Part shown: positions 14,670 through 42,984 of the stretch, one piece after another | Layout: every line of letters begins with the position of its first letter | How positions within the stretch are numbered: position 1 is the first letter of the stretch | Origin: Echinicola sp. 20G | GTDB taxonomy: Bacteria; Bacteroidota; Bacteroidia; Cytophagales; Cyclobacteriaceae | Direction: 5' to 3' | DNA length: 64,000 nucleotides | Assembly: GCF_015533855.1 (NCBI RefSeq) | Contig: NZ_AP024154.1 | Span: forward strand, 1,057,001 to 1,121,000 | The notes under the pieces: generated by a model | What the model saw: the letters and a program-made list of their open reading frames with translations, nothing else | What the model was told of the DNA's origin: nothing | Databases searched by the model: none | Position numbers and translations under genes: made by a program

Positions 14670-16013
14670 CTATTCTGGAATCAATACTTCTCCAACGCCA
14701 TGAATCAAGCCATTTGTTCCTAATTGGTTTAGGTAGTTTTCATCTAAAGAAATGCCATTGACTGTGGGACCTTCTCCATCTAAAAGCAAAGTTTTGTCTG
14801 CCAATTTGGTTTCAAGGACTTGTCCTGTTTGAAACGATTGACTGAAAACCCTTCCAATAGCAATATGGTACATCAAAGTTTCAACAAGGACTGTTTCTTC
14901 GATTTCATAGTAACCAGACACCCCTAAGGATTCATACCATGCATAAAAAGCCAAGTTGTTAGGGACAAAAACGGTGAGTGGTCCTTCCTGCTGTTCTAAT
15001 TCACTCAAAAGCCCAGCGTAAATAAGCGCAGCTTTGAATTCTTCATAACCCTGGTTTTGAGAACCTTCTGACACAATAGTTGCCAAGGATCGTTCAGGCA
15101 CTGTGATCACCTTGTCCTGTTCATGAATAATTCCGTTACCTCCTTGAATATCCTTTCTGGTAATCAACGCATTCCCATTCAACCATATTTCTTCTTCCTT
15201 TTTGCTCACAAACAAACTATCACCTCCATAACTGATTAAGGCATCTGAGACCAGCTCATCACTTTCCAAGCTTCCTTCCACGATACAATACTCCATAAAA
15301 GCATCCAGCCTGGAAGCGGACAACCACTCTTCTTCAGTAATTCCATTTGCTTCGAAATAAGCCGCAAAGGCCGCATCTGTAGGGATAAAAAGTGTAAATG
15401 GACCTGTCTCGGTGAGCACTTTATCCAATCCTGTCTGTAGAAGTCCTTTGACAAACAAAGTATAGCCTTGACTTTGCGCCATAGAAACCACATTTAATTT
15501 ACTGGCTTCCAACACACTTCCTATACCATGTACCATTCCATTAGAGACCTCAATGTCTTTAACCAACAAAGAAACATCGCCATTGACGATGATCTCGTTT
15601 TCTTCTTTATTGATCAACCAGTAATAACCTTGCAAAAAAGTTTCTTTTACTTCTCCTATCAAATCTTCACTGTTCAATTTTCCTGAAGCCAAGTGATAGT
15701 TAATCAAACTGTCCAAATCTTCAGAAGACAAATCAGAAGCCGATGTAATTCCTGCTTCTTCAAAGGCCTTATTAGTAGGTGCAATCAAAGTAAAAGTACC
15801 ATACCCATTTAGTGTATCCCCAATACCTGTCTGTTCAAAAATTTCTGCAAGAATACTAAAATTGGGATCCTGTTGAATAAAGCCTTGAACGGTCAATCCC
15901 TTATAGTCAGGAGTAAGTTCATCTGTACCACAAGAGCTGATCAAAGCAATTACTAAGAATAAAAAAAATAGCGATTTAAAAGAATCCCCATAATTTTGTC
16001 GCCCTTTGCCCAT
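14670..16013 (-). CDS. Fasciclin (FAS1) domain lipoprotein with three repeats
   Basis: 447 residues from the ATG at 16013; an upstream TTG at 16031 is less likely. The lipobox is ALISSC with Cys at 28. Three FAS1 domains follow, near 40-165, 180-300 and 310-447. Each has the core pattern of a TLIAPTNKAFEE-like strand and turn (FTLFIPTDAAFAAYFEANG and LTVFVPNNLAFYAWYESLG in repeats 2 and 3) and the final NGIIHEQD/NGLIHGVGEVL type motif. FAS1 domains mediate adhesion or ligand binding at cell surfaces. In Bacteroidota such lipoproteins are often coded near SusC/SusD pairs. A consensus promoter is present (16079-16110). Confidence 0.9.
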   Translation of the reverse strand: MGKGRQNYGDSFKSLFFLFLVIALISSCGTDELTPDYKGLTVQGFIQQDPNFSILAEIFEQTGIGDTLNGYGTFTLIAPTNKAFEEAGITSASDLSSEDLDSLINYHLASGKLNSEDLIGEVKETFLQGYYWLINKEENEIIVNGDVSLLVKDIEVSNGMVHGIGSVLEASKLNVVSMAQSQGYTLFVKGLLQTGLDKVLTETGPFTLFIPTDAAFAAYFEANGITEEEWLSASRLDAFMEYCIVEGSLESDELVSDALISYGGDSLFVSKKEEEIWLNGNALITRKDIQGGNGIIHEQDKVITVPERSLATIVSEGSQNQGYEEFKAALIYAGLLSELEQQEGPLTVFVPNNLAFYAWYESLGVSGYYEIEETVLVETLMYHIAIGRVFSQSFQTGQVLETKLADKTLLLDGEGPTVNGISLDENYLNQLGTNGLIHGVGEVLIPE

Positions 16014-16040
16014 ATATTTTATATTTATCAATCGGTTCTT

Positions 16041-36111: not shown

Positions 36112-36807
36112 TTAAGATTTGTATCTCCATAATCTCCACCAAGGAGTTCCAGGAGAATCATGATGTTCATAGTGATATCCAAAAAAGTAACACGTAAGAA
36201 ACGCCCAAAAATGATTCTTTTTCATGCTACCAGACTGATGCTTATTGTCGTGCTCTCCCTTGTGAGGCAAATAAGTCCCAAAATAAAATAGCTGAAAGGT
36301 GGACAAAATAGCAGGTAGCATCCAATAGAACACCAAATTTTCAACAGGATAAACCAGCCTGAGCAATTGAAACGCTACTCCCATCAATACCAATTGACCT
36401 AATGAAAGATAGGTTTTAATAAAGCTCCAATACCAAGGCCAAAAATCACCTGACTCATGATAATCCGGATCACTCACCGAAGCTACAAAGCGATGGTGAT
36501 CATGGTGTTTTGGAAATAACTTATGGTAAAAATTAAAAGAAAAAAGGATGGCACAAAACCAGCCAATGGCTTTATTTAGTCTTTTATTGAAGGATACTGT
36601 TCCATGCATAGCGTCATGGGCCGTAATAAAGAGCCCGGTATAAAGATGCATTTGAATCAGGACTCCCATGTAAGTCAAGGGATTGGTATAATCCATTTCC
36701 CAGTTAAGGAAAAATAGAAGAGATAGAAACCATATCAAAATAATTCCCAAAGCAATGATAGTTCCCATTGGATCAACTGGTCGATATTTTTCTTTGACAA
36801 AAGACAT
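36112..36807 (-). CDS. crtW: Beta-carotene ketolase (CrtW)
   Basis: 231 residues from the ATG at 36807; a TTG at 36819 is less likely. It is a membrane fatty acid desaturase-type di-iron enzyme with HDAMHG, HHDHHRF, YLPHKGEHDN and YHYEHHDSP as the metal-binding His boxes. The YFGTYLPH segment is specific for CrtW ketolases. It adds keto groups at C4/C4' of beta-carotene rings. It is the last gene of the crt unit, 36 bases after ispH. With CrtZ coded in the other unit, the expected end product is an astaxanthin-type carotenoid, but the specificity was inferred from motifs only. Confidence 0.9.
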   Translation of the reverse strand: MSFVKEKYRPVDPMGTIIALGIILIWFLSLLFFLNWEMDYTNPLTYMGVLIQMHLYTGLFITAHDAMHGTVSFNKRLNKAIGWFCAILFSFNFYHKLFPKHHDHHRFVASVSDPDYHESGDFWPWYWSFIKTYLSLGQLVLMGVAFQLLRLVYPVENLVFYWMLPAILSTFQLFYFGTYLPHKGEHDNKHQSGSMKKNHFWAFLTCYFFGYHYEHHDSPGTPWWRLWRYKS

Positions 36808-36843
36808 ATTTTCTTCCAAGTTACTGTAAGATAAAAATATCTT

Positions 36844-37689
36844 TTAAAAGTTCAGCAAGCGGTCCCTGACCTCTTCCATCAACCACCGAGGTGTCGAAGT
36901 CGCCCCACAGATCCCCACCGTTTGATTTGAATTGAACCACGACGGTTTAACTTGACCTGCATTGGAGACAAAATAGGTTTCGGTATTCTGACTTTTACAA
37001 ACTTCATAAAGGGCCTTACCGTTACTTGATTTGCTTCCACTCACAAAAACGACTTTATCGAATTCTGTCGAAAACTTTCTCAATTCTTTATCTCGGTTGG
37101 AAACCTGTCGACAGATAGTATCGTTGGTCTGAACCGTAATGCCCTTTTCTTCCAATATTCGGTTGATCTCATAAAACCTATCTGTACTTTTGGTAGTCTG
37201 GCTGAAAAGGGTAATTTTTTCGGGCATATTGTCCAAATCCAATTCTTCAATATTTTGAAATACAACCGCCTCATGTTTGGTCTGACCCAATAGACCTTCT
37301 ACCTCTGCATGTCCATGTTTACCAAAAATATAGATCCTATCCTGACGGTCATAGGCATTCTTGATCCTATTTTGAAGCTTTAGCACTACTGGACAACTTG
37401 CGTCTACTAAAGTAAGGTCATTTTTCAGTGCTAACTCATAGGTAGTTGGAGGTTCTCCATGCGCCCTGATCAAGACCTTTTCATTTTTTAAATCTTTTAA
37501 AAATTCTCGATCTATGATTTTAAGACCTTTGCTTACCAAACGACTGACTTCCTCATCATTATGTACTATATCCCCCAGGCAATAGAGGTGGCCCTCTTCA
37601 TCAAGGATTTCCTCTGCCATCTCTATGGCATATACTACACCAAAACAAAAACCAGAATTAGGATCAATATGTACCTTGAGATCTAACAT
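36844..37689 (-). CDS. ispH: 4-hydroxy-3-methylbut-2-enyl diphosphate reductase
   Basis: 281 residues. The three Cys ligands of the [4Fe-4S] cluster are in SGFCFGVVYA, VDASCPVV and NDTICRQVSNR, and the conserved residues include RAHGEPP, KHGHAEVEG and GATSTPRWLM. It is the last step of the MEP pathway and gives IPP and DMAPP. Located between crtYcd and crtW, with 6 bases to the upstream gene, it is likely co-transcribed with the carotenoid enzymes and raises precursor supply. It may also be the only ispH of the genome, in which case the pathway end is tied to this promoter or has an extra one. Confidence 0.95.
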   Translation of the reverse strand: MLDLKVHIDPNSGFCFGVVYAIEMAEEILDEEGHLYCLGDIVHNDEEVSRLVSKGLKIIDREFLKDLKNEKVLIRAHGEPPTTYELALKNDLTLVDASCPVVLKLQNRIKNAYDRQDRIYIFGKHGHAEVEGLLGQTKHEAVVFQNIEELDLDNMPEKITLFSQTTKSTDRFYEINRILEEKGITVQTNDTICRQVSNRDKELRKFSTEFDKVVFVSGSKSSNGKALYEVCKSQNTETYFVSNAGQVKPSWFNSNQTVGICGATSTPRWLMEEVRDRLLNF

Positions 37690-37695
37690 ATCTTA

Positions 37696-38403
37696 TTAAC
37701 CCAAAGGGCTTTGGATTGTTTTTCTTTGCTTGATTTTTTCATAAATAGAAATATTCATCAGCATCAGTCCCATGGAATAGATAAAGTCTTCTACAGGGAT
37801 AGTAAATATGCGTAGCCCCAAATTTTCTGCGTCATCATAAAACACCACTGGTTCAGGAGTAAATGCTCCTGTCAAGGTGCCGTTAAAAAGTAAAAACGGA
37901 ATCAAATGCACCAAGTAAAAAACATAAAACCTTCCTAAAATTTTATCCTTAAAGAAATAATAATGAAGGGTCAGCAGGAGAGCTACCAAAGTAAAGTTCA
38001 CACAGGTATACCATTTGTCAAGGTTTAGGATTCCAATAATAATCAAGACTCCTATAAGCAAAAATGTAATGCCTTTGGTAATCTTTGTTTTGGGTTTAGG
38101 AGGAAAATAAAATTGGAGTACTTCATAAATAAAAATAGTTGAGAAGGGGACAATGATAAAGAAAAGACATTCTTCTAAGGGCAAACTACCCAAATATACT
38201 CCTGTCAAATATCTTTCATTGAAGCCCCACACCCCCATCTCTGTAAACCACTGGTCCCAGATCAAGTATAGAGCAGCAGTAAATAAAATGGCTGGAAATA
38301 AGGCAAACCACTTTTTAGCATAACTTACCTTAGACTCAAATGACCAAAGCAATGGGAACAATAATGTCGCAATGTTTAATATCAAATAGAGACACTTCTC
38401 CAT
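37696..38403 (-). CDS. crtYcd: Lycopene beta-cyclase, CrtYcd-type fused membrane protein
   Basis: 235 residues with about 6-7 hydrophobic helices in two related halves. Each half has the family motif with acidic residues: PLEECLFFIIVPFSTIFIYE near 75-95 and PVEDFIYSMGLMLMNISIYE near 200-222. This is the fused form of the heterodimeric CrtYc/CrtYd cyclases, unrelated to the FAD-dependent CrtY. It makes beta-rings from lycopene in the membrane. The gene is 3 bases after crtB and 6 before ispH, so it is in one operon. Confidence 0.93.
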   Translation of the reverse strand: MEKCLYLILNIATLLFPLLWSFESKVSYAKKWFALFPAILFTAALYLIWDQWFTEMGVWGFNERYLTGVYLGSLPLEECLFFIIVPFSTIFIYEVLQFYFPPKPKTKITKGITFLLIGVLIIIGILNLDKWYTCVNFTLVALLLTLHYYFFKDKILGRFYVFYLVHLIPFLLFNGTLTGAFTPEPVVFYDDAENLGLRIFTIPVEDFIYSMGLMLMNISIYEKIKQRKTIQSPLG

Positions 38404-38406
38404 AAG

Positions 38407-39252
38407 CTATTCTTCTAAACCTAACTTTGACCCAAAGTAAATACCTAAAAGCAATGATAGCTTTTTGATATTGGGGATTCGTACCCTTCTTAAAGTAATC
38501 GTTTCTGGTTCTAACTTCTTAATCTTCCGAAACAGATTCAAATAATATAAATAGGCTATTTTGACCCCAATTTTTGCACCAACAGGCAAGCGCTTTATCC
38601 CCTCATAGGCATCATCAAAGTCCTTTTGGATATCCTCTTCAATTTCTTTTTTCTTTGTACGGTTAAAAGTTTTATAATCTACTTCCGGGAAATAAACCCT
38701 TCCTCTTTCTTCATAATCACTCTTGATATCCCTTAGGAAGTTAACTTTTTGAAATGCAGAGCCTAATTTACACGCTGGAGATTTTAGTCGTTCATATTCT
38801 TCCTGGTTTCCTTCACAAAAAACCTTCAAGCACATCAAGCCAACTACCTCTGCAGATCCGTAGATGTATTGTTTGTATTTACTATCATTGTATAGACTAA
38901 AATCAAGATCCATGGCCATACTGTCCAGAAACGCATCAATGAGCTCCTTTTCAATCCCATATTGATGGACCACTATTTGAAACGAATGTAAGACAGGGTT
39001 CATACTTATTTTTTGATCAATAGCTTCATAAGTATCTTCTCGGAATTTATCCAAAAGATACTTTTTATCCTTATGGTGAAAAGTATCTACAATCTCATCT
39101 GCAAAACGCACAAAACCATAAATACCATATATTGGGCCGTGAAGCTTCTGATCCATCACCCTAATGCCTAAGCTAAAGGAAGTACTGTACTTTTGAGTGA
39201 TCAGTTTGCTACAGGCTAGCGTAGTCTGGTGATATAAATTAAGAGCATCCAT
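38407..39252 (-). CDS. crtB: Phytoene synthase
   Basis: 281 residues of the trans-isoprenyl synthase head-to-head class. The first Asp-rich motif is RFADEIVDTF, and the second is NFLRDIKSDYEERGRVYFP. The substrate-binding start KYSTSFSLGIRV is typical. It condenses two GGPP into phytoene. It lies 6 bases after crtI and 3 bases before crtYcd on the same strand. Confidence 0.96.
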   Translation of the reverse strand: MDALNLYHQTTLACSKLITQKYSTSFSLGIRVMDQKLHGPIYGIYGFVRFADEIVDTFHHKDKKYLLDKFREDTYEAIDQKISMNPVLHSFQIVVHQYGIEKELIDAFLDSMAMDLDFSLYNDSKYKQYIYGSAEVVGLMCLKVFCEGNQEEYERLKSPACKLGSAFQKVNFLRDIKSDYEERGRVYFPEVDYKTFNRTKKKEIEEDIQKDFDDAYEGIKRLPVGAKIGVKIAYLYYLNLFRKIKKLEPETITLRRVRIPNIKKLSLLLGIYFGSKLGLEE

Positions 39253-39258
39253 GGTTTG

Positions 39259-40755
39259 TTAGTTTTGAGGGGCTATTGAAAATTTCTGTTTGATAATCTC
39301 GTGCGCCACTACTTGGCCGGAAATTAAAGAGGGAGGCACTCCCGGACCCGGAACAGTAAGTTGTCCAGTGTAATATAAATTTTTGAGTTTTTTGTTCCTC
39401 AATTTTGGCTTCAACAGTGCTGTTTGACCTAAAGTATTCGCCAATCCATAAGCATTGCCTTTATAAGCATTGTAATCCGAAATAAAGTCTCGATGTGCAT
39501 AAGACCTGCGATAAAGCACGTGTTCTCTAATACTTTGCCCCGTAAGCTTCTCCAATCTGTCCATCACCAATTGTAAATACTTTTCTCTCTTGGCCTCAGA
39601 ATCCTCTAAATCTGGGGCAAGCGGAATAAGAATAAATAGGTTTTCTTTGCCTTCTGGTGCAACGGAAGGATCTGTCTTGGAAGGACAACACACATAAAAT
39701 AATGGTTTCTCAGGCCAGTCAGGATTTTCATATATCGCCGCTGCATGAGGTTCCAGAGGCTCATCAAAAAAGAGGTTATGATGGTCAAGGTTTTTGAGTT
39801 TCTTATCAATACCTAAATAAAAAATAAGGCTAGAAGGTGCTAGGGTTCTTTTGTCCCAATAGGTATCAGAATAATTTCTACAGTCAGGTGGCAGAAGGGC
39901 GCTATCCACATGATGATAGTCTGCTCCTGCAATCACAATATCCGCAAGGAAAGACCGATCATCGGTCAAATGAACCGCCTTGGCCTCTCCATTTTGAACT
40001 TTTATATGGCTTACATCAGCATTATAAATAAACTCAACCCCTCTTTCTTCCGCTAAGGTGACCATTCCTTTAATGATCTCATGCATACCTCCCATAGGAT
40101 ACCAAGTCCCCAAAACCATATCTGCATAGTTCATCAAGCTATAAAGCGCTGGTATTTTCTCCGCTGTCTGACCCAAAAAAAGTACAGGAAACTCCATCAG
40201 CCTGACTAATTTTTCATTTTTGAAAAATTTCCTCACATGCTTTTTCATGGAATTAAAAATATCCAGCTTGATCAGGTCATTAATAATCCCCGGCTGCGCA
40301 AATTCCCATATGGACTGACCCGGCTTATATACCCAATCTTGAATACCTACTTTATATTTGTGGGCGGCTTGCACCAGAAATTTCTCCAACTTTTCTGCAG
40401 CTCCCGCTTCAATTGATTCAAACAACTCCTTTAATCCATCTAAATCAGCAGGCATATCAATTTGATCATCCTCACCAAAATAAACCTTGTAGGAAGGATC
40501 TAACCTTACAAGCTTATAATAATCGGATGTTTTTTTTCCAAATTGCGCAAAGTAACTTTCAAACACATCTGGCATCCAGTACCAACTTGGACCCATATCA
40601 AAAGTAAATCCCTCAGCTGTAAATTTTCGAGCGCGACCTCCAGGGCTATCGTTTTTCTCCAATAACGTTACCCGGTAGCCTTGATTAGCTAACCTGGTGG
40701 CTGCTGCAATACCCGCAAAGCCAGCACCTATTACCACTACTTGTTCGTTGGTCAT
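39259..40755 (-). CDS. crtI: Phytoene desaturase
   Basis: 498 residues from the ATG at 40755, one base after the sigma factor stop; an in-frame TTG at 40764 is inside that gene. The FAD-binding motif VVIGAGFAGIAAATRLANQG is at the start, followed by EKNDSPGGRARKF. The C-terminal bacterial phytoene dehydrogenase signature is in YYTGQLTVPGPGVPPSLISGQ. It turns phytoene into lycopene. The nearly overlapping start makes translation of crtI depend on the ECF gene before it. Confidence 0.96.
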   Translation of the reverse strand: MTNEQVVVIGAGFAGIAAATRLANQGYRVTLLEKNDSPGGRARKFTAEGFTFDMGPSWYWMPDVFESYFAQFGKKTSDYYKLVRLDPSYKVYFGEDDQIDMPADLDGLKELFESIEAGAAEKLEKFLVQAAHKYKVGIQDWVYKPGQSIWEFAQPGIINDLIKLDIFNSMKKHVRKFFKNEKLVRLMEFPVLFLGQTAEKIPALYSLMNYADMVLGTWYPMGGMHEIIKGMVTLAEERGVEFIYNADVSHIKVQNGEAKAVHLTDDRSFLADIVIAGADYHHVDSALLPPDCRNYSDTYWDKRTLAPSSLIFYLGIDKKLKNLDHHNLFFDEPLEPHAAAIYENPDWPEKPLFYVCCPSKTDPSVAPEGKENLFILIPLAPDLEDSEAKREKYLQLVMDRLEKLTGQSIREHVLYRRSYAHRDFISDYNAYKGNAYGLANTLGQTALLKPKLRNKKLKNLYYTGQLTVPGPGVPPSLISGQVVAHEIIKQKFSIAPQN

Positions 40756-40756
40756 T

Positions 40757-41266
40757 TTAGTCAAGCTTATAAACCTTTAGATCATCTTTCAAGATTTTCC
40801 TTGCGATATGAATTCTGTTTTTGACCGTTCCGATAGGTAAATCTAATTTCTCAGCTATTTCTTGATATTTCCATCCTTTAAAGTACATCATGAATGGAAC
40901 CTGATACACCTCATCTAATCTATCAATGCATTTATTGATATCATTTAAGGCAAACTCACCTGGCGCTCCATTTTCCACAGCTGTATCTCCTGAATTAAGG
41001 TAGTGTAGGTTATCCGTTGTATCTACAAAAGTTGCCCGTCTTACCATCCGTTGATAATTCGTAATGAATGTGTTTTTCATTATGGTATATAACCAAGCTT
41101 TCAGGTTAGTACCATCCGAAAATTTATCTCTATTCGTATATGCTTTTAGCACAGTATCCTGTAGAAGGTCATTTGCCGCATCCAAGTCTTTGGTCAGCCT
41201 AAGCGCAAAAGGTTTTAGAGATTTTGAATGTTGGTTTAAGGTATAACTGAATTCGAGCGTTGTCAT
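40757..41266 (-). CDS. ECF-type sigma factor heading the carotenoid operon
   Basis: 169 residues. Region 2 has LTKDLDAANDLLQDTVLKAY and the -10 recognition part LKAWLYTIMKNTFITNYQRM; region 4 has YQEIAEKLDLPIGTVKNRIHIARKIL. It is the first gene of the crt unit with crtI one base behind it. No anti-sigma gene is next to it. The promoter region carries two long inverted repeats (41278-41354) that are probably the operators of the CarH-like regulator coded upstream. The sigma factor may therefore relay the light signal to other genes or amplify its own unit. No target promoter can be named from this window. Confidence 0.92.
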   Translation of the reverse strand: MTTLEFSYTLNQHSKSLKPFALRLTKDLDAANDLLQDTVLKAYTNRDKFSDGTNLKAWLYTIMKNTFITNYQRMVRRATFVDTTDNLHYLNSGDTAVENGAPGEFALNDINKCIDRLDEVYQVPFMMYFKGWKYQEIAEKLDLPIGTVKNRIHIARKILKDDLKVYKLD

Positions 41267-41277
41267 AGCTTGGTCTT

Positions 41278-41313
41278 TTTTGTTTAATCAAATATAATTT
41301 ATATTAAACAAAA
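41278..41313. promoter_or_regulatory. Site A: inverted repeat over the crt promoter, predicted CarH-like operator
   Basis: The arms ttttgtttaat (41278-41288) and attaaacaaaa (41303-41313) are perfect over 11 bases with a 14-base spacer. The spacer contains the minus-strand -7 box TATATTTG (41289-41296). A bound protein would cover the core promoter of the sigma-crt unit. Confidence 0.65.
41289..41296 (-). promoter_or_regulatory. -7 box of the ECF-crt operon promoter
   Basis: TATATTTG on the minus strand, exact consensus, 22 bases before the ATG at 41266. A TTTG lies 14 bases upstream, shorter than the usual 19-21, so the promoter may need help or may differ at -33. Confidence 0.55.
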
Positions 41314-41322
41314 TAAAAACAA

Positions 41323-41354
41323 TTGTTTAATTAATTTTTATTTATATTAAACAA
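41323..41354. promoter_or_regulatory. Site B: second inverted repeat upstream of the crt promoter
   Basis: The arms ttgtttaat (41323-41331) and attaaacaa (41346-41354) are perfect over 9 bases, again with a 14-base spacer. It is 9 bases beyond site A, so the two copies lie in tandem. Confidence 0.6.
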
Positions 41355-41370
41355 AAATATTTTTGGCATA

Positions 41371-41391
41371 AAAAAACGGGCTTTTGCCCGT
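41371..41391 (-). terminator. Terminator after the crtZ-regulator unit
   Basis: The stem acgggc / gcccgt (41376-41381 and 41386-41391) has a 4-base loop and is followed by seven T on the minus strand. It separates this unit from the crt unit downstream. Confidence 0.9.
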
Positions 41392-41454: not shown

Positions 41455-42351
41455 TCAGTCCTCATTAATTACCTTTCTCTCGTCTTGTAGATAAAATTTG
41501 ACCTCTTCTATTTTATTCATTATCATGACATTCTCAGGCACCTCAACTTCACCTCTAAGAACTTGATAACCCGATACAATAATCGTACTCTTCGGAAATG
41601 TTTTGCTAAGCTTACAAAGGTATGCTGCCACAAGTTCTACCTCAGGAGAAGTGGTAAGTACTGTGATCAAATATTCTGGTTGATGAAACTTATAAACTTC
41701 TAACAAGTCCTCTTGCGGCGTGCTCTGTCCAAGATAAATCACCTTATGCCCTTCACTTTTGATCAAATAAGCAGCAAAAAGAAGAGATATTTCATGCAGC
41801 TCTCCTTCTGGCAAAAAGAGCATGAACTTTTTACCTCCACCTTGATACACGTACCGATCAATCGCCACAATCAGTTTCTGCCTGATCAAATTGCTGATAA
41901 AATGTTCCTGAGCCGGAGAGATGGCTCCTATCTGCCATAAAACACCGATTTTAGACAAAAAGGGATAAATAACACTTAACATAGTTTCATCAAAACCAAT
42001 ACTTCTGGTATTGATTGAAAGAATACGATCAAACCCTTCCTCATCAATTTCTATCATACAAACGGTAAGGGCATAGATCTGATCTTCATAAGCCATAACT
42101 CCTTCAGTCAAGGCAATGACCTTATCTCTGATTTCCTCCGAGCTCATTTTGGCGATTTTTGAAATCTTATAGCCGTTGTTGTTGAGTAAGGAGACATTAA
42201 GAATCAATTTCAAATCCGCATCATCGTAATACCTGATATTGGTCTCTGTTCTTTTTGGCTCGACCAAATTATAGCGTTGCTCCCAAATCCGGATGGTATG
42301 TGCCTTGATCCCCGAAAGATGCTCCAAATCCTTTATCGAATAACTACTCAT
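41455..42351 (-). CDS. MerR-family, B12-binding CarH/LitR-like light-responsive repressor
   Basis: 298 residues. The MerR DNA-binding domain (1-70) has SIKDLEHLSGIKAHTIRIWEQRY. Residues 85-165 match the helical cap with the W-x9-EH motif of B12 photoreceptors (W139, E149, H150). The cobalamin-binding fold (about 175-290) has PEGELHEIS with His186 as the expected axial ligand; the family's next Gly is Ser189 here. CarH binds DNA as a tetramer with adenosylcobalamin in the dark and falls apart in light, so carotenoid genes are turned on. The ATG overlaps the crtZ stop in ATGA. Sites A, B and C with equal arms flank the unit. The function is well supported by context but not shown. Confidence 0.87.
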   Translation of the reverse strand: MSSYSIKDLEHLSGIKAHTIRIWEQRYNLVEPKRTETNIRYYDDADLKLILNVSLLNNNGYKISKIAKMSSEEIRDKVIALTEGVMAYEDQIYALTVCMIEIDEEGFDRILSINTRSIGFDETMLSVIYPFLSKIGVLWQIGAISPAQEHFISNLIRQKLIVAIDRYVYQGGGKKFMLFLPEGELHEISLLFAAYLIKSEGHKVIYLGQSTPQEDLLEVYKFHQPEYLITVLTTSPEVELVAAYLCKLSKTFPKSTIIVSGYQVLRGEVEVPENVMIMNKIEEVKFYLQDERKVINED

Positions 42352-42797
42352 TTCTTCCCTTCTTTAAAATACTTTAGTGGAACCAGTAAGAGACCGAAAG
42401 CCTCCGTTCCCTTCTTTTTATTATTGGCATGGTGGGCTTGATGCGCCTTAAATATGCCCCTGAAGAAGCTATTTCTATTTGGCCTTTTGATCCACTTTCC
42501 TCTTCTATGGATCAGTATATCATGCAACACAAAATATCCAGCTCCATAAATGGTAATCCCCAATCCCATCCAGAATCTGTAATCCAGTTGCTCAAAACCA
42601 AGGACCATTAAAATGATCGAAATACTTCCAAATAGCAGTGAAAATAGATCATTGAGCTCAAATGGCCCCTTAGAGTGCTGATGGTGCGTCTTATGAATTC
42701 TCCAAAGCAATCCATGCATGATATACCTATGGATAAACCAACCAGAAATCTCCATCAGGAAAAAACCTAAAATCACAAACAGTAATGCAAATAACAT
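42348..42797 (-). CDS. crtZ: Beta-carotene hydroxylase (CrtZ, fatty acid hydroxylase superfamily)
   Basis: 149 residues. The four His boxes of the non-heme di-iron enzyme are HRYIMHG, HKTHHQHS, HDILIH and HQAHHANN. The length and spacing fit bacterial CrtZ, which hydroxylates C3/C3' of beta-rings. It is the first gene of a two-gene unit with the regulator, and the two overlap by 4 bases. Together with crtW in the other unit this predicts astaxanthin or related keto-hydroxy carotenoids. A -7 box lies at 42927-42934, beside the inverted repeat site C. Confidence 0.93.
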   Translation of the reverse strand: MLFALLFVILGFFLMEISGWFIHRYIMHGLLWRIHKTHHQHSKGPFELNDLFSLLFGSISIILMVLGFEQLDYRFWMGLGITIYGAGYFVLHDILIHRRGKWIKRPNRNSFFRGIFKAHQAHHANNKKKGTEAFGLLLVPLKYFKEGKK

Positions 42798-42934: not shown

Positions 42935-42938
42935 AATA

Positions 42939-42975
42939 TTTTGTTTAACTATAACTATTTGAATAATAAACAAAA
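42939..42975. promoter_or_regulatory. Site C: inverted repeat between crtZ and the DUF4286 gene
   Basis: The left arm ttttgtttaac (42939-42949) and right arm aataaacaaaa (42965-42975) match the arms of site A with one difference each, and the core ttttgtttA/Taaacaaaa is perfect. The spacer is 15 bases. It is 9 bases before the DUF4286 ATG and next to the crtZ -7 box, so a bound protein could control both genes. Confidence 0.55.
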
Positions 42976-42984
42976 TCTGATAAA

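Follow-up and report, generated by a model that had tools for sequence, protein, structure and literature searches.

Tandem inverted repeats upstream of the sigma-carotenoid operon of Echinicola sp. 20G as predicted operators of an adjacent CarH-like regulator

Results and Discussion

Within the 64,000-nucleotide stretch of the Echinicola sp. 20G chromosome analyzed in this work (contig NZ_AP024154.1, positions 1,057,001 to 1,121,000; the whole stretch is referred to as the window), two palindromes lie between the gene of a MerR/B12-binding regulator and an ECF sigma factor gene. Judging from sequence comparisons, they very probably constitute a tandem operator of this adjacent B12-dependent, CarH-like repressor, which would be bound over the sigma-crt operon in the dark and released in the light. 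The analysis computed the sites with their conservation and spacing, their overlap with a promoter, their joint occurrence with the regulator, and the conserved residues of its B12 site, and from these we infer binding, its dependence on adenosylcobalamin (AdoCbl) and light, and the oligomer state.

Gene neighbourhood and the operator pair

On the minus strand, the crtZ-like gene is followed by the MerR/B12 regulator gene, a terminator-like stem, both repeats, and the genes of the ECF sigma factor, crtI, crtB, lycopene cyclase, ispH, and the crtW-like ketolase. The features are as follows (window coordinates):

42938 to 42976, no strand assigned: probable third, weaker operator, ATTTTGTTTA-N19-TAAACAAAAT, between the divergent crtZ and DUF4286 genes
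42348 to 42797, minus strand: crtZ-like hydroxylase (FA_hydroxylase; no NCBIfam match), overlapping the regulator gene by 4 bp
41455 to 42351, minus strand: CarH-like MerR/B12-binding regulator, 298 aa
41376 to 41391, minus strand: terminator-like stem (ACGGGC-AAAA-GCCCGT and a T-run) after the regulator gene
41323 to 41354, minus strand: distal operator, second copy of TTGTTTAAT-N14-ATTAAACAA
41316 to 41322, minus strand: expected -33 region, degenerate here (TTTT at 41316-41319, TTG at 41320-41322)
41280 to 41311 (core), minus strand: proximal operator, TTGTTTAAT-N14-ATTAAACAA, ending 13 bp before the sigma start codon
41289 to 41296, minus strand: -7 box TATATTTG, inside the proximal spacer and touching the downstream arm
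40757 to 41266, minus strand: ECF sigma factor, heading the operon proposed to be repressed and overlapping crtI, as called, by 8 bp
39259 to 40764, minus strand: crtI phytoene desaturase (CrtID model above cut-off)
38407 to 39252, minus strand: crtB phytoene synthase (SQS_PSY; NCBIfam CrtB models below cut-off)
37696 to 38403, minus strand: lycopene cyclase of the CarR-domain type
36844 to 37689, minus strand: ispH
36112 to 36819, minus strand: crtW-like ketolase (below the NCBIfam cut-off)

The two gene overlaps (crtZ/regulator and sigma/crtI) suggest that transcription proceeds in two units, the second of which is headed by the repeats. As the terminator-like stem appears to end the regulator unit, a promoter of its own is probable for the sigma operon. 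The search for such stems found one against 0.9 expected by chance, and the terminator reading relies on the place of the stem just after the regulator gene and not on this count.

The proximal repeat has perfect 11-nt arms (41278-41288 and 41303-41313) and the distal one perfect 9-nt arms (41323-41331 and 41346-41354), each pair flanking a 14-nt spacer, and 9 bases (41314-41322) separate the full arms of the two repeats. The cores with 9-nt arms start 43 bp apart, i.e., about four helical turns, and the 34-nt copies of the operator are 88% identical as direct repeats. A first-pass annotation, made from the sequence of the window, had described two inverted repeats with N14 spacers, 9 bases apart, and both are present as written: the pattern matches twice in the window and in none of 100 dinucleotide shuffles. 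The exact -7 box that it placed in the first spacer was likewise found, on the minus strand at 41296-41289. The search of the genome (5.79 Mb, one contig) that it proposed was performed and yielded three exact sites, the reversed-letter control giving none. When up to three mismatches were allowed (N14 only), the genome contained 24 sites versus 16 in the reversed control; weak matches therefore mean little, weight was placed on conservation and on sites matching exactly or nearly so, and a genome-wide regulon built from weak matches was dropped.

The probable third operator lies closer to the DUF4286 start than to crtZ. It may also be written in the TTGTTTAAC-N15 form, with two mismatches, at 42941-42973, and similar sites occupy the same place in a congeneric genome (G047) and in Echinicola arenosa.

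Conservation of the sites upstream of sigma factor genes

The regulator is carried by 52 of 60 genomes of the family. Out of 60 matches listed, 53 loci were used, and 40 of these have a sigma gene with a readable start, the remaining 13 (L101, L102, L112, and L116-L125) standing outside n = 40. The matches set aside comprise five weak paralogues, a second gene fragment from a split gene (G038, the same place as L126), and G033, whose locus (L058) bears one exact N15 site and one site with three mismatches; for four loci (L019, L026, L031, and L032), longer stretches covering the same positions were taken instead. A site was counted when it lay within 150 bp upstream of the sigma gene and had at most three of its 18 arm positions changed.

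By this definition, at least one site precedes 36 of the 40 family sigma genes linked to the regulator, and two sites precede 30 of them. Shuffles of the same 40 regions gave on average 0.64 regions (maximum 4) with one site and 0.01 (maximum 1) with two, and reversing their letters left single sites in seven regions and pairs in none. In the four other regulator-linked upstream regions no site with up to three mismatches was found. The spacer is N14 in 60 of 66 sites, N15 in six, and N13 in none, and the distance within pairs amounts to 43-46 bp in 26 of the 30 pairs, 63-64 bp in three, and 32 bp in one. At 10.5 bp per turn, the spacings of 43-46 and 63-64 bp correspond to about four and six helical turns, each exceeding whole turns by 2 bp.

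Among named organisms, 46 loci were gathered, 39 of them with a sigma gene, and a site was present in 38 of the 39 (two sites in 24, spaced by 43-44 bp in 18 pairs and by 63-64 bp in six). The repeats are thus conserved upstream of crt genes in relatives, the lack of which the first-pass annotation had named as grounds for giving up its reading. Echinicola, Algoriphagus, Aquiflexum, Adhaeribacter, and Rufibacter are among the genera with sites; Pontibacter has weaker sites, most of them single, and one representative has none.

The sites also accompany the sigma-crtI pair where it stands away from the regulator. In three genomes of this kind (450 kb away in one, on other contigs in two), the displaced sigma-crtI loci (L155-L157, from the genomes of L123-L125) have two, two, and one adjacent sites. 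In three further genomes crtI was present and no regulator was found: in two of them (L158, L160) the fetched stretch contained neither this sigma factor nor sites, and in the third (L159/G008, 83% complete) both the sigma gene and a site were present.

Overlap of the proximal site with a predicted promoter

Nineteen proximal and 21 distal sites passed the filters for alignment (N14, pair spacing of 42-46, full flanks). The alignment of the 19 proximal sites reveals, in register with the palindrome, TTTG (15, 19, 17, and 14 of 19 per base)-N19-TAnnTTTG, a -33/-7 arrangement that we take to be the Bacteroidetes housekeeping promoter. TTTG thus stands 19 bp before the -7 box in relatives; its counterpart in the window is degenerate and the -7 box is kept. 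Among the 36 site-bearing loci, 19 have TAnnTTTG 14-16 bases after the start of the sigma-nearest site, so that in about half of the loci the proximal site overlaps a conserved, predicted -33/-7 promoter. Of the two arms, the upstream one lies within the spacer of this promoter and the downstream one directly follows the -7 box, hence a bound protein would block the polymerase. An overlap with the promoter of the carotenoid operon, expected of a CarH operator, is therefore seen here at the level of sequence.

The regulator as a distant homologue of CarH

The regulator contains an N-terminal MerR winged-helix domain (PF13411, 60.9 bits against a cut-off of 21.6) and a B12-binding_2 domain (PF02607, 32.6 against 23). 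In CarH, the C-terminal cobalamin domain combines a four-helix bundle with a Rossmann part. The score for PF02310 (23.1) is below the gathering score of 32.1; the same stretch aligns with the Thermus thermophilus CarH structure 5c8d, including the axial His, and the whole alignment with this protein covers residues 4-218. With NF052513, the CarH equivalog of NCBIfam, the protein scores 91.3 bits, far below the cut-off of 400, yet this is the best-scoring model of that library, which indicates a distant CarH homologue and not an equivalog by that rule. The closest regulator among the named-genome matches listed (from which the window's own record may be left out) is that of Echinicola arenosa, with 94% identity.

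The Wx9EH motif, which caps the adenosyl group, is represented by W139, E149, and H150, and the lower axial ligand by H186 in GELHEIS, where the G after the His is replaced by S. These residues are nearly invariant in 119 homologous segments from 119 loci (W in 119, E in 118, H in 118, axial His in 117). Wx9EH together with the B12-binding motif defines CarH, CarA being without Wx9EH (PMC8156234, as far as its accessible text goes); the presence of the motif sets the regulator apart from CarA. It is also distinct from class II LitR proteins, in which the B12 domain is cut to a four-helix bundle, as its alignment with 5c8d reaches residue 218 and takes in the axial His region. In T. thermophilus CarH, the residue after the conserved W is a His that joins the photolysed bis-His state, according to the part of PMC8156234 available. 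This position holds Q in 97 of the 119 segments and His in one, and the lit form of the regulator may therefore differ from that of T. thermophilus CarH.

Co-occurrence of the site and the regulator

The exact site (N13-15) was detected in 48 of 291 genomes of the order, with two in the reversed control, and the exact site (N14-15) in 35 of 295 genomes of the class, with none in the control; 11 genomes, two of them positive, are common to both sets. A homologue of the regulator at E ≤ 1e-20 was found in 237 of the 291 and 184 of the 295 genomes, respectively. All site-bearing genomes have such a homologue (48/48 and 35/35, where chance would give 39.1 and 21.8; one-sided Fisher test 1.9e-5 for the order and 1.7e-8 for the class, kinship ignored), and no exact site occurs in the 54 order and 111 class genomes without a regulator match. 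The reverse relation is looser, since 189 of the 237 order genomes and 149 of the 184 class genomes with a homologue contain no exact site.

Half-site geometry and comparison with known systems

In the aligned sites, the core TnnACA is present in the downstream arm of all 19 proximal and all 21 distal sites and, as TGTnnA, in the upstream arm of 18 of the 19 and all of the 21, respectively, a score that is partly given by construction, because the arms were the search pattern. The half-sites are inverted, with centres 24 bp apart, and direct repeats in the spacer are next to absent: elsewhere, TnnACA occurs in at most one of 19 proximal, two of 21 distal, and one of 86 symmetrised non-sigma sites, and TGTnnA at other offsets in at most two of the 19 proximal sites. 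The tandem sigma operators thus present four half-sites about 24, 19-20, and 24 bp apart, i.e., about two turns each, and half-sites of the same direction are in most cases separated by 43-46 bp, nearly the length of four 11-bp repeats.

The operators of myxobacterial, Thermus, and Bacillus CarH proteins are described, in the accessible part of PMC9304148, as tandem arrays of roughly three to five direct repeats of 11 bp (nnnnTnnACAn), some of them degenerate. Such a tandem of direct repeats was not found here, and the predicted inverted layout sets this operator apart from the characterised CarH operators as published. In other respects the system resembles CarH, or class I LitR, of T. thermophilus, Bacillus megaterium, and Myxococcus xanthus, with which it shares the MerR DNA-binding domain, a predicted B12-binding domain, Wx9EH, the axial His, the linkage to crt genes, a predicted operator over a primary-sigma promoter, and the TnnACA half-site core; besides the orientation of the half-sites, it differs in the residue after W, mostly Q here and not His. 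The view expressed in the first-pass annotation, that the repeats are CarH-like operators over the crt promoter, is consequently supported by the conservation of the repeats, the CarH signature residues, the co-occurrence of site and regulator, and the promoter overlap, with two corrections: the sites are neither confined to crt promoters nor laid out as direct repeats.

A likeness to CarA of M. xanthus consists, as far as the accessible accounts go, in the cooperative binding of two dimers over the promoter, known for CarA, and in a site first described as two inverted repeats; the difference is that CarA, devoid of Wx9EH, does not need B12. Later work suggests that CarA too reads direct repeats (PMC9304148, accessible part). 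For the class II LitR proteins PplR1/PmlR2 of Pseudomonas, the available text of PMC9758184 gives the site T(G/A)TACA-N12-TGTA(C/T)A, two copies of which occur at one promoter, and the light-inducible targets photolyase, folE, cryB, and pplR1; crt, rhodopsin or FAS1 genes are not named in that text. These proteins differ, by the same text, in keeping only the four-helix part of the B12 domain, in their LOV partner, and in half-site and spacing. By analogy, their control of folE and photolyase is an independent parallel for the candidate pterin target described below.

Another system worth comparing is LitR-LitS of Streptomyces coelicolor, in which a B12-binding MerR repressor controls an ECF sigma factor serving crt genes. 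Here, the crt operon itself begins with the sigma gene, and the two systems also differ in phylum, promoter type, and operator.

Genes adjacent to the sites

Genes were classified beside the 55 exact sites of the order and 37 further sites of the class, with Pfam checks on selected proteins; the ECF class denotes similarity to the window's sigma factor at E ≤ 1e-6 and does not imply crt linkage. The order sites adjoin genes of ECF sigma factors (27), rhodopsins (seven; six by script and L069 from coordinates), PTPS (four), FAS1 (four), DUF4397 (three), BLUF (one), and the regulator (one). In L086 and L087 a rhodopsin gene comes after a 72-aa frame (L087 by its likeness to L086 and a rhodopsin profile search), and six sites (L048, L049, L063, L079, L093, and L097) are outside these classes. 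One of the four PTPS sites is common to a CrtI-like gene, and another is 266 bp off, with another frame nearer on its other side. The class sites are next to genes of sigma factors (13), FAS1 (five), CrtI-like proteins (three), CrtZ (two), the regulator (two), SDR (one), flavin reductase (one), a TetR_C_23-like protein (one; L145, by resemblance to L079), and, in L140, a rhodopsin with a divergent beta-carotene dioxygenase, eight being outside the classes. Exact sites just upstream of the regulator's own gene were found in L084, L142, and L271.

Two further arrangements were observed. In L079 and L145, from two different families, exact sites stand directly before TetR_C_23-type genes (Pfam check on L079 only), and in L064 and L065, from two genomes of one genus, the operator region is common to the sigma gene and a divergent gene resembling Zn-dependent phospholipase C/S1-P1 nuclease.

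In ten genomes of the family, 44 sites with up to two mismatches were found against 13 in the reversed control, and PTPS recurs in six of the 20 loci listed from them, with folE next in line in L287. In the congeneric genome G047, four sites of this kind are present (one in the control), located before FAS1, before sigma as a pair, and one before crtZ-regulator. Counted from the gene side among the matches listed, sites with up to two mismatches precede six of 30 rhodopsin and five of 30 FAS1 genes (shuffle means 0.01 and 0.0; reversed 1 and 0); with up to three mismatches these figures, for the same 30 listed each, rise to nine and eight (shuffles 0.35 and 0.27; reversed 5 and 0). The rhodopsin count includes at least one locus with a misassigned strand (L218; its genome carries an exact site at that place, L069). 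As the gene-side counts are modest, general control of FAS1 or rhodopsin genes is not claimed.

In the Echinicola sp. 20G genome itself, rhodopsin is ruled out as a target, there being no PF01036 match in that genome. The only other exact operator (209314-209345) lies 60 bp upstream of a lipoprotein-like FAS1 gene (L001:496-1440, minus strand), whose closest matches, in G047 and G045, have upstream sites with two and one mismatches, respectively; in several further families, too, exact sites precede FAS1 genes. These arrangements suggest that the same operator probably ties FAS1 and crtZ-carH into one regulon in this genome and, in other Bacteroidota, probably rhodopsin, pterin-synthesis, and BLUF genes as well. 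AstaP of green algae, an astaxanthin-binding FAS1 protein, is a comparable case of a FAS1-domain protein accompanying carotenoids. The Echinicola-like FAS1 protein matches AstaP (8c18) by sequence, although better scores are obtained with further FAS1 chains, among them TGFBI and periostin. For a cyanobacterial FAS1 relative, the accessible part of PMC10147662 reports a failure to bind carotenoids.

Three observations made alongside are recorded here. The window encodes a second FAS1 protein with three domains (14670-16031, minus strand), near which no N14 operator with up to three mismatches was found. The only regulator homologue found in another genome (39%; L101, G037:C609) is located divergently beside a FAS1 sequence instead of crt genes, with a three-mismatch site before FAS1, a further hint of a CarH-FAS1 link. 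A second tandem pair in the Echinicola sp. 20G genome (sites at 351182 and 351234, with one and two mismatches and starts 52 bp apart; span 351182-351265, L004:1501-1584) precedes a gene for a small membrane protein without a Pfam match, near transposase-like frames (labels from sequence), and is a possible target only.

Alternative explanations

The adjacent regulator might bind the palindromes and respond to a signal other than light and B12, in a B12-independent manner like CarA, or to redox state or singlet oxygen. The precedent of CarA, which binds a bipartite operator without needing B12 (PMC8156234, accessible text), and the Q that replaces the His of T. thermophilus CarH in most homologues are in keeping with this. 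However, Wx9EH, missing from CarA, is kept with the axial His in nearly all of the 119 segments, and many of the target genes are light-related, which makes such a signal unlikely. A still smaller chance is given to the palindromes being recognised by another transcription factor or by the ECF sigma factor itself. Autoregulation by the sigma factor would account for its gene being the commonest neighbour of the sites (27 of 55 in the order, 13 of the 37 further class sites), but other genes (rhodopsin, PTPS, FAS1, and the regulator's own) are preceded by sites as well, and the proximal site carries -33/-7 elements that resemble a housekeeping promoter. To our knowledge, the symmetric N14 layout is not how any sigma factor reads promoters. 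Against this explanation as a whole stands the complete absence of exact sites from the genomes of order and class without a regulator match.

Inverted repeats between two genes, with a terminator-like stem nearby, could also be taken for RNA hairpins, i.e., a terminator or attenuator, instead of DNA operators. The stem at 41376-41391 is, however, separate from the repeats, whose arms are A+T-rich with 14-nt loops, while the regular spacing of the pairs and the -7 box inside the proximal copy fit recognition of double-stranded DNA; we regard the hairpin explanation as extremely improbable.

Proposed mechanism and significance

If the palindromes are the operator of the CarH-like repressor, then in the dark AdoCbl-bound oligomers would bind to two and, through cooperativity, to four TTAAACA half-sites spaced by roughly two turns. 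The protein on the proximal palindrome would cover the sigma-crt promoter and block RNA polymerase with the housekeeping sigma factor. Light would split the Co-C bond, CarH would release the operator, and sigma, crtIB, cyclase, ispH, and ketolase would then be transcribed together. A single tetramer using all four of its DNA-binding domains on the four half-sites is a tempting model.

Among the papers listed by full-text searches of open literature, none announces a CarH operator or regulon of Bacteroidota in its title or the opening of its abstract. In the accessible parts of the sources, light-induced carotenoids are reported for Chryseobacterium, in which no car or lit operon genes were found and which may have a new light regulator (PMC7064467), and a MerR gene is mentioned in the crt cluster of Nonlabens (PMC11855829).

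With little more than even confidence, we lean towards a wider view, in which a B12 photoreceptor-repressor acting on inverted half-sites would be a general light switch across Bacteroidota. It would control carotenoids via an ECF sigma factor and, depending on the lineage, rhodopsin together with the dioxygenase that forms its retinal, pterin synthesis, BLUF, and FAS1/DUF4397 proteins. Some of these last proteins, which are exported, perhaps hold or carry carotenoids at the cell surface; four half-sites would fit one tetramer. Should this be true, Bacteroidota, with their many coloured and rhodopsin-bearing species, would gain a light sensor, its DNA target, and a testable list of target genes. 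Inverted half-sites would then have to be counted among the targets of CarH proteins, which would widen the rules for B12-based light switches, and FAS1 and DUF4397 proteins would stand out as unexplained parts of the light response.
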